From positions 248,001 to 312,000 of the forward strand of contig PALM01000020.1 in the NCBI GenBank assembly GCA_002706365.1: 64,000 bases of DNA, read 5' to 3'. Positions 18,165-28,094 of this stretch are shown here, one piece after another (position 1 is the stretch's first letter; every line of letters begins with the position of its first letter). The stretch is from Flavobacteriales bacterium. GTDB taxonomy: Bacteria; Bacteroidota; Bacteroidia; Flavobacteriales_E; Vicingaceae. A program made the position numbers and the translations under genes. The notes under the pieces are model-generated. The model was given only the letters and a program-made list of their open reading frames with translations, had not been told where the DNA came from and ran no database searches.

Positions 18165-19115
18165 CTACTGTACAATGACTTTCTTAGTAGCAACAAGTCT
18201 TTCAGCTTTATAGATCGATAAAAGATAGATACCTGCATCTTGGATCTCAAGAAGCTCATTCTGTTTTGTAACTGGAGCAGAGTAAACCATTTTTCCACTC
18301 AGATCACTGACTTGGATTTTCAAATCAGTAGTGAACCTTTCAAAACGAACATTCAATTGACCTTTAGAAGGGTTCGGCCAAACATTTAGATTCAATTTGA
18401 TCTTTTCTTGATCCTCCAATCCAACTGTATTTTCACTAAACACATTTCTTGTGAAGTTCGAGATCAAGGTACTGCCATGACTAAACTCTCCATGATAATT
18501 CAAATTCTGATCTACGGGAATATTTGTGAGTGATTGTAGATAATCTGCCGTAAGATTAAAAACCTTACCTCCATTTAGATCAGTTGGTGTAACAGTATGA
18601 CTTTGAAGTTCATAATTACTATCTCCGAGTCCGTGAATAGAGATCAAGGTATTAAAACCTGCGCCAATCTGCCCTTCAAATGCCACAAAACGATATCCTG
18701 CAGCCCAACCCCAGTGCATAGATGGGAATTTTGGAGCTAGGGGATGATTTGTAGGCCAAGAATTAGGGTCCAAATGATTGTTATTTGGATCTACTCCAAC
18801 AAAGAACTGTATACCTTCAATATTATTCACATTGAGATTTCCCAAATAGAAAGTTGAATCTATCTCTGCATTTATCAATAAGAACTTTGAAGGGATACTA
18901 GTGACTTGTCCACTATCATGGATCACACTAAATCCGGATAGATAGTATTCAATCCTAGTGAAACGGTAAGGATCATTCTCATTCGAAATGATTTCGGAAG
19001 TAGAATAATCCGCATTTCCAAGCTTATGATCTATATTCAGATATATATCAGTCTGAGAATATAGTGAGATCGCAAAGGCTGATATGAGGCTTAAAAGGAG
19101 TAGTAATTTCTTCAT
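18165..19115 (-). CDS. MbnP-family protein with T9SS sorting tail
   Basis: This 316-residue protein has a signal peptide (to about residue 20). The MbnP-like domain (about 22-230) opens IYLNIDHKLGN and contains FTRIEYYLSGF, FFVGVDPNNN and the HWGWAAGYRF segment (H134, W135, W137). The Trp-rich motif is the most conserved part of the MbnP family, where a Trp can be converted to kynurenine by a diheme MbnH enzyme to make a copper site. A T9SS type A tail follows (about 248-316; VWPNPSKGQLNV, GIYLLSI). Two diheme peroxidase genes follow 5 bp downstream. I infer an exported copper- or metal-binding protein; the exact modified Trp cannot be told from this sequence alone. Confidence 0.8.
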   Translation of the reverse strand: MKKLLLLLSLISAFAISLYSQTDIYLNIDHKLGNADYSTSEIISNENDPYRFTRIEYYLSGFSVIHDSGQVTSIPSKFLLINAEIDSTFYLGNLNVNNIEGIQFFVGVDPNNNHLDPNSWPTNHPLAPKFPSMHWGWAAGYRFVAFEGQIGAGFNTLISIHGLGDSNYELQSHTVTPTDLNGGKVFNLTADYLQSLTNIPVDQNLNYHGEFSHGSTLISNFTRNVFSENTVGLEDQEKIKLNLNVWPNPSKGQLNVRFERFTTDLKIQVSDLSGKMVYSAPVTKQNELLEIQDAGIYLLSIYKAERLVATKKVIVQ

Positions 19116-19151
19116 ATTCCACGAATTTACTCAAAATTAACAATTAAGAAA

Positions 19152-19159
19152 CAAAGATA
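19152..19159 (-). promoter_or_regulatory. Bacteroidota -7 box of the mbnP-ccp operon
   Basis: The minus strand reads TATCTTTG (TAnnTTTG), 37 bp before the ATG at 19115. A second match, TAATTTTG, lies at 19132-19139. Neither has a clear -33 TTG at ideal spacing, so the choice between them is open. Confidence 0.5.
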
Positions 19160-19167
19160 GTCGACTA

Positions 19168-19323
19168 ATGTTGAGGGGATTGGGTATAGAAGAAGAACCT
19201 AGAGCCTTGAATCTAGACTTAATGATGAATTACATTTCCGAACATAATTTAAAAACTCTAGGCATTCTAGCTGCACTCTTTGCACTTCGAAGCCATGGCG
19301 TAGAAGTATTAGGGCACTTTTAA
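19168..19323 (+). CDS. Possible small protein (51 aa), unrecognised
   Basis: A short open frame starts at ATG 19168, divergent from the MbnP-like gene. It reads MLRGLGIEEEPRALN, then LMMNYISEHNLKTL and ILAALFALRSHGVEVLGHF. The composition is protein-like (amphipathic helices, few rare residues), but there is no clear promoter and no family match I can name. It could be a real small protein or the remnant of a larger gene. Confidence 0.3.
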   Translation: MLRGLGIEEEPRALNLDLMMNYISEHNLKTLGILAALFALRSHGVEVLGHF

Positions 19324-19331
19324 CTTCATCA

Positions 19332-19360
19332 GGATTGAGTTCCTTTCAGTCGCTCCATCC
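19332..19360. repeat. 29-nt hairpin repeat, copy 1 (tRNA-Pro side)
   Basis: The motif opens GGAT, closes ATCC and has the conserved 11-base loop TCCTTTCAGTC. The pairing continues outside the motif (CATCAGGAT with ATCCTGATG), giving about 13 paired positions with one mismatch. It is followed by an A-rich stretch and a terminator-like hairpin ending in a T run (about 19385-19412). Confidence 0.75.
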
Positions 19361-19452
19361 TGATGGGCAGAAACTTAATAAAAGCCACAGCTGCTAGCGC
19401 AGCTTTACTTTTTTATTTCTCACTTCGCTCTGAAGCAAGCTTCGAGTTTGAA

Positions 19453-19481
19453 GGATTGAACTCCTTTCAGTCGCTCTATCC
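19453..19481. repeat. 29-nt hairpin repeat, copy 2 (tRNA-Pro side)
   Basis: The frame is the same as copy 1 (GGAT, loop TCCTTTCAGTC, ATCC), 121 bp further on. The outer arms here are AAGGAT and ATCCTT, different from copy 1 but still complementary. Confidence 0.75.
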
Positions 19482-19582
19482 TTAAGGGATGTCGATTCAA
19501 CAGAAAGCCTTCATCTCACTTCGTGAGCTGTTGCTTTTTTTGTTTTTCGCTTCGCACTTAAGCAAGCTTTGTGCTTGCTCAA

Positions 19583-19622
19583 ACAAAAAAAGCCTCCAAT
19601 CTTTCGATTGAAGGCTTTTTGT
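19583..19622 (-). terminator. Terminator of tRNA-Pro
   Basis: The hairpin GCCTTCAATC / GATTGGAGGC around a CGAA-type loop is followed on the minus strand by seven T. It begins directly after the tRNA 3' end. A T run on the opposite side makes it symmetrical. Confidence 0.85.
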
Positions 19623-19700
19623 TGGTCGGGGTGGCAGGATTCGAACCTGCGACCTCCTGCTCCCAAAGCAGGCGCGATAACCGGGCTACGCTACACCCCG
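19623..19700 (-). tRNA. tRNA-Pro (TGG)
   Basis: A full cloverleaf can be drawn. The acceptor CGGGGTG pairs with CACCCCG, the anticodon stem CCTGC / GCAGG encloses TTTGGGA (anticodon TGG), and the T arm is CAGGTTCGAATCCTG. The 3' ACCA appears to be encoded. A terminator follows at once. Confidence 0.97.
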
Positions 19701-19829
19701 ATAAGTCTTTCTTCTCCTTCTTTAAGCAGGTGAGAAAAACCTGACCAATTACATCTTTGAACTCCTTCAAAAACGGGAGCGCAAATATAACCCATTTCCT
19801 TTATTCTACTCAAGAAAAAAAGGAAGAAA

Positions 19830-22094
19830 TTATTCCACCCAAAATTCAAGTCGGAATTCATGTGATGAAACATTGCTTTTTAGAGAATCCGGAGGCATTA
19901 CGCTAAAGCGAATTCTTGTAGGATCAATGCCTTTTTCAACACTTAAGTATTCTATTATCGCATTTTGCCTGTGAGTCCCTATACGATCAACCTTTTTGAG
20001 TGCATTTTGTTCGCCAACGGCTTCTATGCATGCCTTTTCAACGCTCACCTCCCCTTTGGCTTTTGGACTCTGTTTAAATACAAATTCCACAAAAGCACTA
20101 TCATTCTTATCAAGCTCTAACATTTCAAGGTAGACATCTCTATTGATCTTATCTACATCGGGAAGTGAATCATTAGGGAACATATAGCGATAGCGCATTT
20201 CATTCAAGGCATACTCTTGTAATTCATAATATATCTTTGTACTGCGTTTGAAATCTACATTGATATCCTTTTTATTCTTCATTATTCTAGAGAGGTGATC
20301 CAGTTTCATCTTATCCTTCTTAAAAAGCCTCTGCTGCAAGAAATTGAAATTAATCGACTCCAAATCACGGGGTTCGAAGTCGAACAGCTCCCCCAATCCC
20401 TTTAATGGTGCAGAGACTGCTTTATTTAGTAACTTCTTGACTATCCTCCAGATTACTTTTCCAATATTGAAATTTGGGTCATTCAAATCACCTTCGATAG
20501 GTATATCCAATTCAATATTTCCATCGACATCTTTGAGCAATGAAGTACCGAGCTTTACAGGAAGCTTTTCATTTTCAGCTTTGAGCTTGCTCCTTTTCCC
20601 CCAATTCAATTGATCGACCTCAATGAGATTAATACTCTTCAATTTATTGTTGCGTATCTCCACTTCACAGTGATATGCCATCGTTCCATTTTCCAGTGGA
20701 AAATCAACATAATCAATGGTGTAGGGCGAGAATGGAGTCAAGTCGAAATTCTTCAGCTCCATCTGCATGTCAAGATCTTTTGGTTTTTGGGTGTACGGAC
20801 GAATAAAACCCCTTACTTCACCTCTTTCATTCAATGCGGCACTGAAATCAACTTTCAGTCTTTCGTCCTTAGAGCTCAATTCTTTGGCTATCAATCCCGC
20901 ATCATGAATCTTGAAATCGAACTCTCTAGTTTGCCTTTTGTAATCAGTGAAGTTTACTTTCACACCTTCAACTTTGAACAGATCCAAGCGATAGGAAGAT
21001 TCATCATATGACTTTACGATATTCTTCACATGCTTAAATACCATTAAGAAAGGGTTCTCATATTCAGTAACTTCTTTGTCACTAAACGAAGTTGTGTTAG
21101 ATTCTATGGTATCTACTTTCATTAGGTTGGAGAAGGTGTTTCCACCCTCATATATCTCAAAAGCTACCTTTAAGCCACTGCTTTGAATTTTTTCAATATT
21201 GTAGACTGCTTCTGAGAATTGAACGGTATCAATATCAAACTCAAACTCATCTTGGTACAGTATTGATTTCGCTCTGGCATCAACAAATTCAAAGTCGCTA
21301 ACTGTTACCTTTCCACTAAAATTCAAATTTTCCGAATCAACAAAGCTGCCATTCAATCGCATTTCGGAATTGTACTTTCCATTCAACTCATTGAAGTTGA
21401 GAATGGGACGTAAATAAGGTTCAATAAGTGCAAGATCAATATCTGAGGTTTTAAGATCTACTGTAAACATAGAATCAATAAGATCTATGGCCCCAACCAC
21501 CTTTACTCCTCCCCCGCTTGATAGACTAGAGGTCGTATTGAATTTTACCGAAGTACTGCCATCACTGAAAAAGGGAAGGTAAAATTCGATCGAATCAATA
21601 GTGGTTAATGGATATAAGATACTACTGTATCCTATTTGTCCTCCACTCACCTTCACATTCTTTATCTCAAAATGCAAATCACTGTCTGAATTGTCAGTAT
21701 CATTTGAACTGGCTGTTTCACTTAACTTTTCAATGATATCATCAAAGTTGAACTGATTTCCACTTTGTTTGATGCGCGTATACCAATCATTTAATTCGAA
21801 TGATTCTATATGCAGCTTCTTCGAGAAGAGATCAGTAAGTGAAAGATTCACATTCATATGCTCAAAGCGAATGAATACAGAATCACTTTGGTATTCGTAA
21901 AGTCTAAAGCCCTCAATACTAGCGCTCCCGCTGAGATAGCCAATATGTAGATCCTCAATAACTACTTCTCTACCGATGAGTTCTAGGTCATTTTTCTCAA
22001 CATAGTCAATGATAATCTTCGGAAGGAAAGTGAGCAGCAGGAAAACACCAACAATGAGGATGGCTAGTATGATGAGAAGAACTCTTCTGAACAT
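19830..22094 (-). CDS. AsmA/DUF748-type envelope protein
   Basis: This 754-residue protein has one N-terminal membrane anchor (about residues 4-25) and then IIIDYVEKNDLELIGREVVIEDLHIGYLSG, the start of the DUF748 family of AsmA-like proteins. The middle consists of long beta repeats (FDFKIHDAGLIAKELS; FDLTPFSPYTIDYVDFPLENG). The last ~80 residues (VDRIGTHRQNAIIEYLSVEK) resemble an OmpA-C-like tail as seen in other DUF748 proteins. AsmA-like proteins span the periplasm and are linked to lipid or envelope homeostasis; the specific role is not known. It is a single gene just upstream of tRNA-Pro on the same strand. Confidence 0.75.
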   Translation of the reverse strand: MFRRVLLIILAILIVGVFLLLTFLPKIIIDYVEKNDLELIGREVVIEDLHIGYLSGSASIEGFRLYEYQSDSVFIRFEHMNVNLSLTDLFSKKLHIESFELNDWYTRIKQSGNQFNFDDIIEKLSETASSNDTDNSDSDLHFEIKNVKVSGGQIGYSSILYPLTTIDSIEFYLPFFSDGSTSVKFNTTSSLSSGGGVKVVGAIDLIDSMFTVDLKTSDIDLALIEPYLRPILNFNELNGKYNSEMRLNGSFVDSENLNFSGKVTVSDFEFVDARAKSILYQDEFEFDIDTVQFSEAVYNIEKIQSSGLKVAFEIYEGGNTFSNLMKVDTIESNTTSFSDKEVTEYENPFLMVFKHVKNIVKSYDESSYRLDLFKVEGVKVNFTDYKRQTREFDFKIHDAGLIAKELSSKDERLKVDFSAALNERGEVRGFIRPYTQKPKDLDMQMELKNFDLTPFSPYTIDYVDFPLENGTMAYHCEVEIRNNKLKSINLIEVDQLNWGKRSKLKAENEKLPVKLGTSLLKDVDGNIELDIPIEGDLNDPNFNIGKVIWRIVKKLLNKAVSAPLKGLGELFDFEPRDLESINFNFLQQRLFKKDKMKLDHLSRIMKNKKDINVDFKRSTKIYYELQEYALNEMRYRYMFPNDSLPDVDKINRDVYLEMLELDKNDSAFVEFVFKQSPKAKGEVSVEKACIEAVGEQNALKKVDRIGTHRQNAIIEYLSVEKGIDPTRIRFSVMPPDSLKSNVSSHEFRLEFWVE

Positions 22095-26800: not shown

Positions 26801-26946
26801 GCCCAACTAGCGATTAAAATACTAAAAAGTCAAGGTAACATTATTCAAGTAGTGAGGAGAAAGCATAATTTCTAAACTCTGAACAACAAACACCACTTGC
26901 TCTCAACTCACACTCTTGCTGCACTCGGGTATGGCCAGTGTTAGGC
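26801..26946 (-). other. Candidate attC site J1 (both cores intact)
   Basis: This 146-bp spacer has a perfect RYYYAAC core (GCCTAAC, minus 26946-26940) at one end and a perfect GTTRRRY core (GTTGGGC, minus 26807-26801) at the other, in the correct orientation for the genes. The stop codon of the RelE-like gene lies inside the first core (GCC TAA C). The inner boxes are only weakly complementary in this copy. Confidence 0.55.
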
Positions 26947-27255
26947 CCCGTTTTTTATTATTTTCTTCAGTTGGTTAGGATCTTGACGGTTATCCCAGAA
27001 GGCTTCAATTCTAATTGAAGAAGGAGTGAAGCGATAATAGATGCTGTAGTGATTCATAGCTGCCACCCTGACTTCTGGGTAAACAGATTCCGGACTCTTC
27101 TTAGGATACTTTTTGATCTGTTCGAGATTATCCTCTATTCGATCTAGAAGTTTTAATGAAAAGGTGTTTGAACCGTTTCTTTTGATCCAGAATTCTAATA
27201 TGTGACGAAGCTGCTTGCTGGCTGTGACCGACCAGATTACTGTTCTTTCAGCCAT
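26941..27255 (-). CDS. RelE/ParE-family toxin
   Basis: This 104-residue toxin has the RelE/ParE fold pattern: WSVTASKQLRHILEFW, DRIEDNLEQIKKYPKKSPE, VRVAAMNHYSIYYRFT and IEAFWDNRQDP. Such toxins cleave ribosome-bound mRNA (RelE) or inhibit gyrase (ParE); the two cannot be told apart here. The gene overlaps its antitoxin by 19 bp. Its stop codon TAA is part of the GCCTAAC core that begins the next spacer. Confidence 0.85.
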   Translation of the reverse strand: MAERTVIWSVTASKQLRHILEFWIKRNGSNTFSLKLLDRIEDNLEQIKKYPKKSPESVYPEVRVAAMNHYSIYYRFTPSSIRIEAFWDNRQDPNQLKKIIKNGA

Positions 27256-27476
27256 TCTCTTTCTCTCGCAAATAATTCTTCATGACCAATGACTCTTCCA
27301 TTTTCGAAATCGTCTTCACTCATTTTGAGCATTTCAATTTGATCTTCGGTAAGTTCTATTTTTTGATCAATGCTTGTTTTGCTCACGAGCTTGTCTAAGG
27401 CTGAAAGAACATCACGATCTTTAATAGCCAGCAATTTGCTGATAAGAGAGTTTCTTATGTTATCTACTGTAGCCAA
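27237..27476 (-). CDS. Antitoxin partner of the RelE/ParE-type toxin
   Basis: This 79-residue protein is helix-rich (ISKLLAIKDRDVLSALDKLV) with a C-terminal segment of acidic and Trp/Glu-rich residues typical of toxin-wrapping antitoxins. The start is TTG, supported by AAAGGAG seven bases upstream. The family is recognised mainly from context and size. A GTTAGGC core lies 52 bp upstream. Confidence 0.75.
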   Translation of the reverse strand: MATVDNIRNSLISKLLAIKDRDVLSALDKLVSKTSIDQKIELTEDQIEMLKMSEDDFENGRVIGHEELFAREREWLKEQ

Positions 27477-27527
27477 AATTTCTCCTTTCTTTCAAAGTTC
27501 GTAAAAAAGTTCAACCTATAGAATGGG

Positions 27528-27670
27528 GCCTAACTAGCGGTTAAAATACTTAAAAGTTGGGATAGCGTCTTTAGCTCTAATTTCCGGCTATCGACCATCG
27601 GCAATCGGTCCTTGAGGGATTGCAGCAAACAAAAATCATTTCCGATTTCCGATTTCTGATTTCTGATTTG
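27528..27670 (-). other. First cassette-like boundary J0 (one core) with TTTCTGAT repeat
   Basis: GCCTAAC on the plus strand at 27528-27534 (GTTAGGC on the coding strand) is followed by the conserved block ACTAGCGGTTAAAATACTT. The other half of an attC is not seen; the sequence runs into a TTTCCGAT/TTTCTGAT repeat (27637-27670) and then the tRNA-Ser repeats. If this is an integron, an attI or integrase would be expected on this side, but none is present. Confidence 0.45.
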
Positions 27671-27703
27671 GAGGGATTGTATCGCGTGATACCGAATTAA
27701 ATA

Positions 27704-27732
27704 GGATTGCCCTCCTTGCAGTCGGGCCATCC
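27704..27732. repeat. 29-nt hairpin repeat, copy 3 (tRNA-Ser side)
   Basis: This copy has the same frame as copies 1 and 2 (GGAT, loop TCCTTGCAGTC, ATCC), with inner arms GCCC / GGGC in place of GAGT / GCTC. The arms change but pairing is kept. Confidence 0.75.
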
Positions 27733-27844
27733 CGAGGGGGTAACCAACAACAAAAAGCTGACAAGCCGTTTGCACGGCTCTTCTTTTTTTATGCCTTTAC
27801 TGCGCTCTCAAGCGAGCTTGGAGCGGCTGTTCCATAAAGGGTAA

Positions 27845-27873
27845 GGATTCCGCCGACTGCGTCGCCGGCATCC
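27845..27873. repeat. 29-nt hairpin repeat, copy 4 (diverged)
   Basis: The GGAT and ATCC ends are kept, but the loop here is itself self-complementary (CGAC TGC GTCG). It is followed by ATCCCGGACGGGAT. I treat it as a diverged member. Confidence 0.55.
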
Positions 27874-27971
27874 CGGACGGGATTACCAGCAAATAAATCC
27901 CAGCTAGCCGCTCTGCGACTTGGGATTTTATGGTTCTACGCTCTTTGAAGCTAGCTTCAATCGCTAGAAAC

Positions 27972-28003
27972 AGAAAATCCCAGCTATCACTAGCTGGGAT
28001 TTA
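27972..28003 (-). terminator. Terminator of tRNA-Ser
   Basis: The strong hairpin AATCCCAGCTA / TAGCTGGGATT has a four-base loop, with T runs on the minus strand. It starts 5 bp after the tRNA end. The AATCCCAGCTA arm also occurs in the adjacent repeat unit (about 27895-27906). Confidence 0.85.
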
Positions 28004-28007
28004 TTTG

Positions 28008-28094
28008 CGGAGAGAGGGGGATTCGAACCCCCGATACCCTTGCGGGTATAACACCTTAGCAGGGTGCCGCTTTCAGCCACTCAGCCACCTCTCC
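28008..28094 (-). tRNA. tRNA-Ser (GCT)
   Basis: The cloverleaf has acceptor GGAGAGG paired with TCTCTCC, anticodon loop CTGCTAA (anticodon GCT), a long variable arm (TACCCGCAAGGGTA) as expected for serine, and T arm GGGGGTTCGAATCCCCC. CCA is not encoded. Confidence 0.97.

Follow-up and report, generated by a model that had tools for sequence, protein, structure and literature searches.

tRNA-linked repeats (TLRs) have been known since 1978, and those at tRNA genes are without an explained function (available text of PMC8144298). The same source describes the Escherichia coli TLRs (tyrT/rtT repeats, rrA/B/F) as sets of one to five units that follow a tRNA or rRNA gene, with the last 18-19 bp of each unit repeating the 3' end of the gene upstream, and reports that the rrA/B/F TLRs yield Hfq- and CsrA-binding RNAs. 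Among fungal mitochondrial elements, mORFs have been described in Allomyces atp6 and in Glomus atp6, atp9, cox2 and nad3, one of them of the GIY-YIG type (available text of PMC3630166). Within the open literature (subscription journals were outside our reach), we found nothing joining GIY-YIG genes, tRNA remnants and Bacteroidota. Here we describe TLR-like units behind the tRNA genes of a Flavobacteriales genome, together with related units in other genomes that carry small GIY-YIG genes.

Results

Two units trail each tRNA gene of the window

The window, the whole stretch of 64,000 nucleotides analysed, corresponds to G000:C20:248001-312000, where G000 is the 3.0-Mb draft genome and G001 its sister species. 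ARAGORN and Rfam located only two tRNA genes in it, tRNA-Pro(tgg) and tRNA-Ser(gct), both on the minus strand, so that the stretch 19332-19622 lies directly downstream of tRNA-Pro. The first-pass annotation had described two hairpin-terminator units behind each gene, and coordinates and folds agree with this: the 29-nt hairpins of the Pro units are spaced by 121 bp and the 30-nt hairpins of the Ser units by 141 bp. The features are as follows.

19623-19700, minus strand: tRNA-Pro(tgg), parent gene of the Pro units (ARAGORN; Rfam RF00005, 69.2 bits)
19609-19624, minus strand: Pro P1 5' arm, the final tRNA bases plus trailer, complementary to 19498-19513 (locus-specific pairing)
19585-19620, minus strand: T1, the intrinsic terminator of tRNA-Pro (terminator scan)
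19548-19580, minus strand: Pro unit 1 central hairpin with the AAGCTTGCTT core
19534-19547, minus strand: Pro A-run, partner of the T1 T-run in the alternative fold (P3)
19513-19529, minus strand: Pro P4 hairpin, loop CGAAG, core of the second bidirectional terminator (plus-strand terminator call at 19515-19527)
19498-19513, minus strand: Pro P1 3' arm, able to pair with the trailer of tRNA-Pro
19453-19481, minus strand: Pro T-arm remnant 1 (29 nt, with a hairpin occupying the T-loop; the orthologous L293 and L294 continue into the tRNA-Pro 3' end)
19419-19446, minus strand: Pro unit 2 central hairpin
19380-19404, minus strand: Pro unit 2 second terminator, still complementary to the G001 tRNA-Pro terminator (GCCACAG)
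19332-19360, minus strand: Pro T-arm remnant 2 (29-nt hairpin), at the start of the stretch 19332-19622
28007-28094, minus strand: tRNA-Ser(gct), parent gene of the Ser units (ARAGORN, Rfam)
27968-28002, minus strand: T1 of tRNA-Ser; the 5' arm at 27992-28008 pairs with 27889-27905
27936-27967, minus strand: Ser unit 1 central hairpin
27889-27905, minus strand: Ser P1 3' arm
27845-27874, minus strand: Ser T-arm remnant 1 (30-nt hairpin)
27752-27825, minus strand: Ser unit 2 central hairpin and terminator
27704-27733, minus strand: Ser T-arm remnant 2 (30-nt hairpin)

The first modules folded more stably than all of 200 dinucleotide shuffles (z = -5.8 for Pro and -8.0 for Ser, no shuffle being equal), while the short hairpins by themselves were less striking (z = -3.3, -1.5, -2.9 and -2.7). 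Five terminator-like sites were called on both strands of 18900-20000, with 0.8 expected. The 15-nt core GAGCGACTGAAAGGA occurred twice in the window with at most 2 mismatches (0.13 expected; 2 of 100 shuffles reached two occurrences). At curated scores, Rfam matched the two tRNAs and no other family in the window, RtT included, and the units contain no ORF of at least 80 aa.

Directly behind the Ser units, the minus strand of window positions 26941-27500 holds small overlapping ORFs that resemble a type II toxin-antitoxin pair. Runs of AAATCAGAAATCGGAAATC-like short repeats trail the remnants at many G000 tRNA loci, for example at 27600-27680 on the minus strand of the window.

The 29-nt hairpin as a T-arm remnant

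At the orthologous tRNA-Pro(tgg) loci of G002 and G028, the hairpin continues into CCACCCCGAC, the end of tRNA-Pro: G002 has the hairpin AGGAT..CATCCT and then ACCACCCCGAC, and G028 has GGATATTCAATCC and then TGCCACCCCGAC, the tRNA-Pro end. Likewise, the hairpin at Pro(ggg) of G003 and G006 is followed by the tRNA-Pro end, in G003 with an additional copy of the terminator. Within G000, the Phe remnant retains its cognate stem (GCTGG..TTCCAGC), and the His remnant and one Met remnant continue into CCCGATCTTCCA and TCGTGTCC. Because the orthologues and the Phe, His and Met remnants continue into or match the tRNA, the 29-nt hairpin is, on sequence grounds, the parent tRNA's T-arm, its loop carrying a hairpin, and not an independent motif. 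For the window's Pro and Ser sites themselves, this identity is suggested by the orthologues and the common design. Their units have kept the T-arm and lost the acceptor part that relatives retain, and a cognate-versus-noncognate T-arm score did not single out the cognate tRNA at either site. Such ranking was abandoned as a test, being informative for a minority of tRNAs with a mean rank near chance.

We also tried the hairpin as an autonomous motif. A pattern scan of the genome allowing 1 mismatch found 10 places, mostly away from tRNAs, against 6 for the reversed control; so close to the control level, the letters alone do not make the hairpin a conserved motif, and the candidate was rejected.

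The module lies behind tRNA 3' ends

A covariance model built from 14 module copies was searched in 16 whole genomes (E <= 1e-3) and gave 37 matches in 8 of them, including 16 in G000 and 10 in G001. Comparison with tRNA tables and extra sequence stretches placed all 37 matches behind tRNA 3' ends (14 of the 37 places being the model's own sources), which strongly supports the link to tRNA 3' ends proposed by the first-pass annotation. Complete tRNAs directly precede 32 matches. Of the other five, one follows a tRNA end truncated at the border of its contig, one a tRNA-Ser(tga) end that has been displaced and two tRNA-Ala 3' remnants, and the last is a second Pro(ggg) unit. With every model match at a tRNA 3' end, a dispersed repeat of the REP/MITE type is ruled out. 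The further expectation that the module would follow most tRNA genes did not hold: the two-terminator module is present behind 13 of the 34 tRNA genes of G000, a few others bear related forms, and most tRNAs of G003, G006 and G008 are without it.

The tRNA-Ser(tga) module of G001 trails a displaced 21-nt tRNA-Ser end, with a putative integrase-like ORF behind the tRNA. At L290 (G001:C106, 1024-1143) and at L087, an island seems to separate tRNA-Ser(tga) from the module.

Module architecture and locus-specific pairing

Read outward from the tRNA, the module begins with the P1 arm, T1, the AAGCTTGCTT hairpin and an A-run able to pair with the T-run of T1. Beyond these come a second hairpin, whose loop is of the CGAAG type and which together with its flanks reads as a terminator in both directions, then the arm that partners P1, a linker rich in C and finally the 29-nt hairpin. 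A four-way junction is the minimum-energy fold of the Ser module; for Pro, it is the centroid, the minimum-energy fold being the terminator alone.

P1 pairing proved locus-specific (permutation p at the floor of 1e-4). In G000, the mean duplex energy was -22.1 kcal/mol with the own tRNA trailer and -10.3 kcal/mol with others (n = 12, the own pair being best in 9; Val(tac), one of the 13 loci, was left out), and in G001 the values were -19.0 and -9.3 kcal/mol (n = 9, own best in all 9). The own pair was not the strongest for Ala, Ser(tga) and Arg(acg). Compared with swaps between G000 and G001, own pairs averaged -20.7 versus -14.8 over 8 tRNAs, some of which deviate. Kept up and co-varying between species, P1 pairing looks more like the outcome of selection or conversion than of simple decay; Pro unit 2 did not track the change in T1. 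The likely effect of the two bidirectional terminators and of the locus-specific P1/P3 pairing would be to shield the tRNA from its remnants.

An inverted copy of the tRNA 3' end was considered as well, as the P1 partner arm at Arg(acg) heads towards an acceptor-like GACCTCG. It was dropped because this string also trails the modules of other tRNAs.

Partial tRNA copies across genomes

Each of 183 tRNA genes (G000, G001, G003, G006, G008 and G036) was compared with its own flanks after masking other tRNAs. Partial self-copies flanked 46 of the 183, against 3 of 183 in a mismatched control that used the flanks of a different tRNA. Downstream copies on the plus strand reached the tRNA 3' end in 34 of 41 cases, upstream copies began at the tRNA 5' end in 18 of 27, and seven self-copy matches were on the minus strand. 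The hairpins within remnants are located at the T, anticodon or D arm. Gln and Lys remnants share the arrangement GCGAGAAGTTTAT, hairpin, AAGCCC, with a similar form at His. Copies of the 5' half upstream of tRNA-Leu, Phe and Cys (L031/L047, L157, L140, L152, L138) carry D-arm palindromes resembling CCTGCCTGCC..GGCAGGCAGG.

Small GIY-YIG genes in tRNA-linked units

Several units hold an ORF of the GIY-YIG family of 78-104 aa. All 25 genomes searched had PF01541 matches, UvrC being counted among them. Where tRNA tables were available (five genomes), 13 of the 25 small GIY-YIG genes lay less than 1 kb from a tRNA (0.51 expected, p about 5e-16), and none of the 9 long ones, which include UvrC, did so; in G000, 1 of 4 small genes stands beside a tRNA. 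Behind tRNA-Met of G010, we found 10 identical or nearly identical 457-bp GIY-YIG units interspersed with an ORF-less mini-unit, and behind its tRNA-Asn a five-unit GIY-YIG array with 5'-half copies upstream. An eight-unit GIY-YIG array follows tRNA-Met in G014.

With three such nucleases as queries, a scan of 84,980 species genomes yielded 44 loci, mostly from Flavobacterium and also from Aquimarina, Chryseobacterium and Epilithonimonas. A tRNA lies upstream of the nuclease on the same strand at 36 loci (35 tRNA-Met), the other 8 being without one. A 3' remnant of this tRNA was found at 26 of the 36, usually with an anticodon-arm hairpin similar to CATATCCGCC..GGCGGAC. Searched across 395 genomes of the class, this hairpin pattern turned up in 27, and its reversed control in none; six of eight inspected loci adjoin tRNA-Met, and two had no tRNA in the stretch examined.

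Across 14 aligned nucleases, Y19, G21, R29, H33 and E66 are invariant and Y8 nearly so. NCBIfam searches with ten of the nucleases returned only two sub-threshold matches, to a group I intron endonuclease model, and the PDB contributed one weak sequence relative, the UPF0213 protein BH0048. In 40 loci around GIY-YIG genes (some overlapping), Rfam found no further RNA family behind tRNA-distant nucleases except tmRNA at L228 and DUF805 RNA at L230; the tmRNA gene may be a further nuclease target.

No two-terminator module with an ORF inside was seen, and among the nuclease loci searched with the model the module occurred at tRNA-Pro(ggg) only. There, the nuclease ORF lies on the opposite side of the tRNA, and upstream ORF and downstream module coexist, with the ORF intact in G006 and a fragment in G003.

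On the minus strand of L228 (G003:C2), a small GIY-YIG ORF (1386-1628) is located downstream of tmRNA (2071-2469), among repeats. From a Candidatus Yanofskybacteria contig, and hence outside Bacteroidota, comes a relative of the tRNA-Met nuclease that lies 121 nt behind tRNA-Ala (L280).

An empty and an occupied tRNA-Met allele

Four Flavobacterium loci provided a pair of orthologous sites, occupied in F. nitrogenifigens (L336, from L241) and empty in F. pectinovorum (L338, from the genome of L256). The flanks upstream match at 90% over query positions 1-547, up to a point about 11 nt beyond the tRNA, and those downstream at 88% over 180 bp. In L338, tRNA-Met is followed by the terminator AAAACCCTAATC..GATTAGGG; in L336, it is followed by the terminator ACACCACTTT..AAAGTGGTG, a GIY-YIG ORF, the remnant and then AAAACCCTTAAA..TTTAAGGG. 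The front terminator of L336 resembles that of F. piscis (L337). The L338 terminator is similar to the one that follows the remnant in L336, not to the one that follows the intact tRNA; the native terminator of L336 thus seems to have been displaced behind the hairpin-blocked remnant, with an element-borne one in front. Judged from the aligned alleles, the pair demonstrates the insertion architecture for tRNA-Met: a unit inserted in the tRNA gene, bringing its own 3' half and terminator.

An uninserted allele among relatives was found for Flavobacterium tRNA-Met (L336 versus L338). L339 is a second site without a unit; no downstream matching was obtained for it, nor between L337 and the empty sites. 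A genus-wide search in the genus of G154 recovered tRNA-Met loci and no shared flanks. The comparison of Chryseobacterium and Epilithonimonas, with a second intact tRNA-Met, is suggestive, if less clean than the Flavobacterium pair.

Comparison with described systems

For E. coli K-12, the loci read were a selection that covers part of the genome (45 tRNA or 5S genes). A TLR-type repeat lay within 420 nt of 11 of the 45, some repeats being common to neighbours, and the single 5S gene tested was not picked up by the repeat criterion. In 9 of 11 repeats, the 5' strand of the T-arm matched at 9-10 of 12 bases, with an insert in the loop. The TLRs at tyrV, arg and lys have T-arm strands and a hairpin-rich T-loop insert, for example GGAT..AATCC as in the window; this common GGAT..ATCC frame is striking and could reflect homology or convergence. 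As in TLRs, the window units stand immediately downstream of the tRNA, and their number, two each at Pro and Ser, falls within one to five. In contrast to TLRs, the window Pro and Ser units do not end in 18-19 bp of 3'-end identity and retain the T-arm only; shorter or similar identity is found at tRNA-Pro of relatives (L293, L294) and, over 14-18 nt, at Ala, Gln, Trp and Lys of G000. The K-12 loci read contain no GIY-YIG nuclease gene, which implies that remnants can persist or arise in the absence of a nuclease. Set against a GIY-YIG homing element, the window units have no nuclease ORF, whereas units of relatives have one with the catalytic residues.

Group I introns with homing nucleases reside in tRNA anticodon loops, for example that of cyanobacterial tRNA-fMet. 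There, too, the nuclease target is a tRNA anticodon loop, but in the present units the tRNA gene is contiguous and splicing unneeded. The mORFs are similar in that an endonuclease gene in the 3' part of a gene supplies a replacement 3' end, leaving the native end downstream; they differ in affecting mitochondrial protein genes, and tandem arrays and hairpin-blocked remnants are not described in the available text of PMC3630166. SegB of phages T4/T6, a free-standing homing endonuclease of the GIY-YIG type, resembles the nucleases in its association with tRNA genes and with tandem amplification, which SegB produces by recombination, but belongs to phage, and the available text of PMC13096335 does not describe a replacement tRNA half. 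As far as these texts go, mORFs are a precedent for nuclease genes that bring along a new end for a gene, and SegB for a GIY-YIG enzyme linked to tRNA genes and tandem amplification.

Discussion

On balance, we consider it probable that the window units are decayed, ORF-less tRNA-linked repeats, most likely derived from homing elements that target tRNA genes and restore their target. This reading starts from what the loci directly display, namely that the units are remnants specific to tRNAs, that related units are linked to nuclease genes and form tandem arrays, and that one orthologous site is seen both empty and occupied. To these it adds that the nucleases would cut, that the elements would home or move, and that the window units would descend from nuclease-bearing ones. 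The first-pass suggestion of a mobile element using tRNA terminators came close: besides a terminator, the units hold a part of the tRNA itself, and an endonuclease gene is found in related units.

In this model, a unit is a partial copy of the neighbouring tRNA's 3' end, its T-arm bearing a hairpin within the T-loop, plus a terminator. A complete element would encode a small GIY-YIG nuclease cutting a tRNA gene within the anticodon arm or the T arm; repair from an occupied copy would then bring in the unit, comprising a replacement tRNA 3' half, a terminator, a nuclease gene or short filler, and a hairpin blocking the displaced native arm. The tRNA would thereby be restored and its old 3' half left as a remnant, which the hairpin would shield from cutting. 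Tandem arrays would expand by recombination, and nuclease units would decay to ORF-less ones. This descent of the ORF-less window type is the weakest link, supported rather than proven: it draws on the mini-units in arrays and on the coexistence of upstream ORF and downstream module at Pro(ggg). Weighing against the model are the lack of an ORF in every two-terminator module seen, the single tRNA-adjacent gene among the four small GIY-YIG genes of G000, the 8 of 44 nuclease loci with no tRNA upstream on the same strand, the nuclease-free E. coli loci, the T-arm scores at the window's Pro and Ser sites, and a P1 pairing that looks maintained rather than decayed.

Without any mobile element, hairpin-rich and highly transcribed tRNA genes might gain palindromic partial tandem copies by replication slippage and template switching, with nuclease genes settling later. 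Copies are indeed local and beside their cognate tRNA, some (7 matches) are on the minus strand, the inverted-repeat design with near-perfect P1 complements would fit fold-back copying, and the E. coli TLR loci read are without a nuclease. We nevertheless regard this origin as unlikely: the end points of the copies are fixed at mature tRNA ends, unit bodies (the AAGCTTGCTT hairpin, the GAGAAGTTTAT or TCCGCC..GGCGGA ends) are common to different tRNAs and families, the occupied allele has an element-borne terminator that sets it apart from the empty one, and 13 of 25 small GIY-YIG genes lie at tRNAs.

The module could also be a functional RNA or DNA device under selection whatever its origin, acting as a tandem bidirectional terminator, a four-way-junction trailer or a processed small RNA. 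Its absence behind 21 of 34 G000 tRNAs and most of those in G003, G006 and G008, a Pro unit 2 out of step with the change in T1, and own pairing that is not best at Ala, Ser(tga) and Arg(acg) make this improbable in our view, despite fold z-scores of -5.8 and -8.0, locus-specific P1 arms in G000 and G001 whose own pairs beat cross-species swaps on average, and the binding of Hfq and CsrA by E. coli rrA/B/F TLR RNAs (available text of PMC8144298). Hairpin inserts in T or anticodon loops, 5'-half copies upstream, tandem periods of 100-180 bp and units without an integrase render it very improbable that the copies are attR-like scars of tyrosine-integrase islands entering at tRNA 3' ends. Such scars would account for the 3' pieces of 17-18 nt, a length typical of tRNA-end integration sites, and the displaced tRNA-Ser(tga) end of G001, where the module stands apart from the gene, is one likely case.

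Beyond the preferred origin from target-restoring homing elements, we tentatively put forward that natural home-and-rescue elements may exist in bacteria, in which a minimal GIY-YIG nuclease would cut tRNA (perhaps tmRNA) genes and travel with a spare tRNA half, in 5' and 3' mirror forms. TLRs across phyla, including those of E. coli, would then be ORF-less fossils of such elements. Finding the same TLR architecture with a nuclease gene, arrays and an empty and occupied pair in Bacteroidota makes the origin of TLRs testable. There are synthetic gene drives that disrupt an essential gene while supplying a rescue copy of it; if our reading is true, the elements described here would be a natural counterpart of these break-and-rescue drives, acting on tRNA genes.
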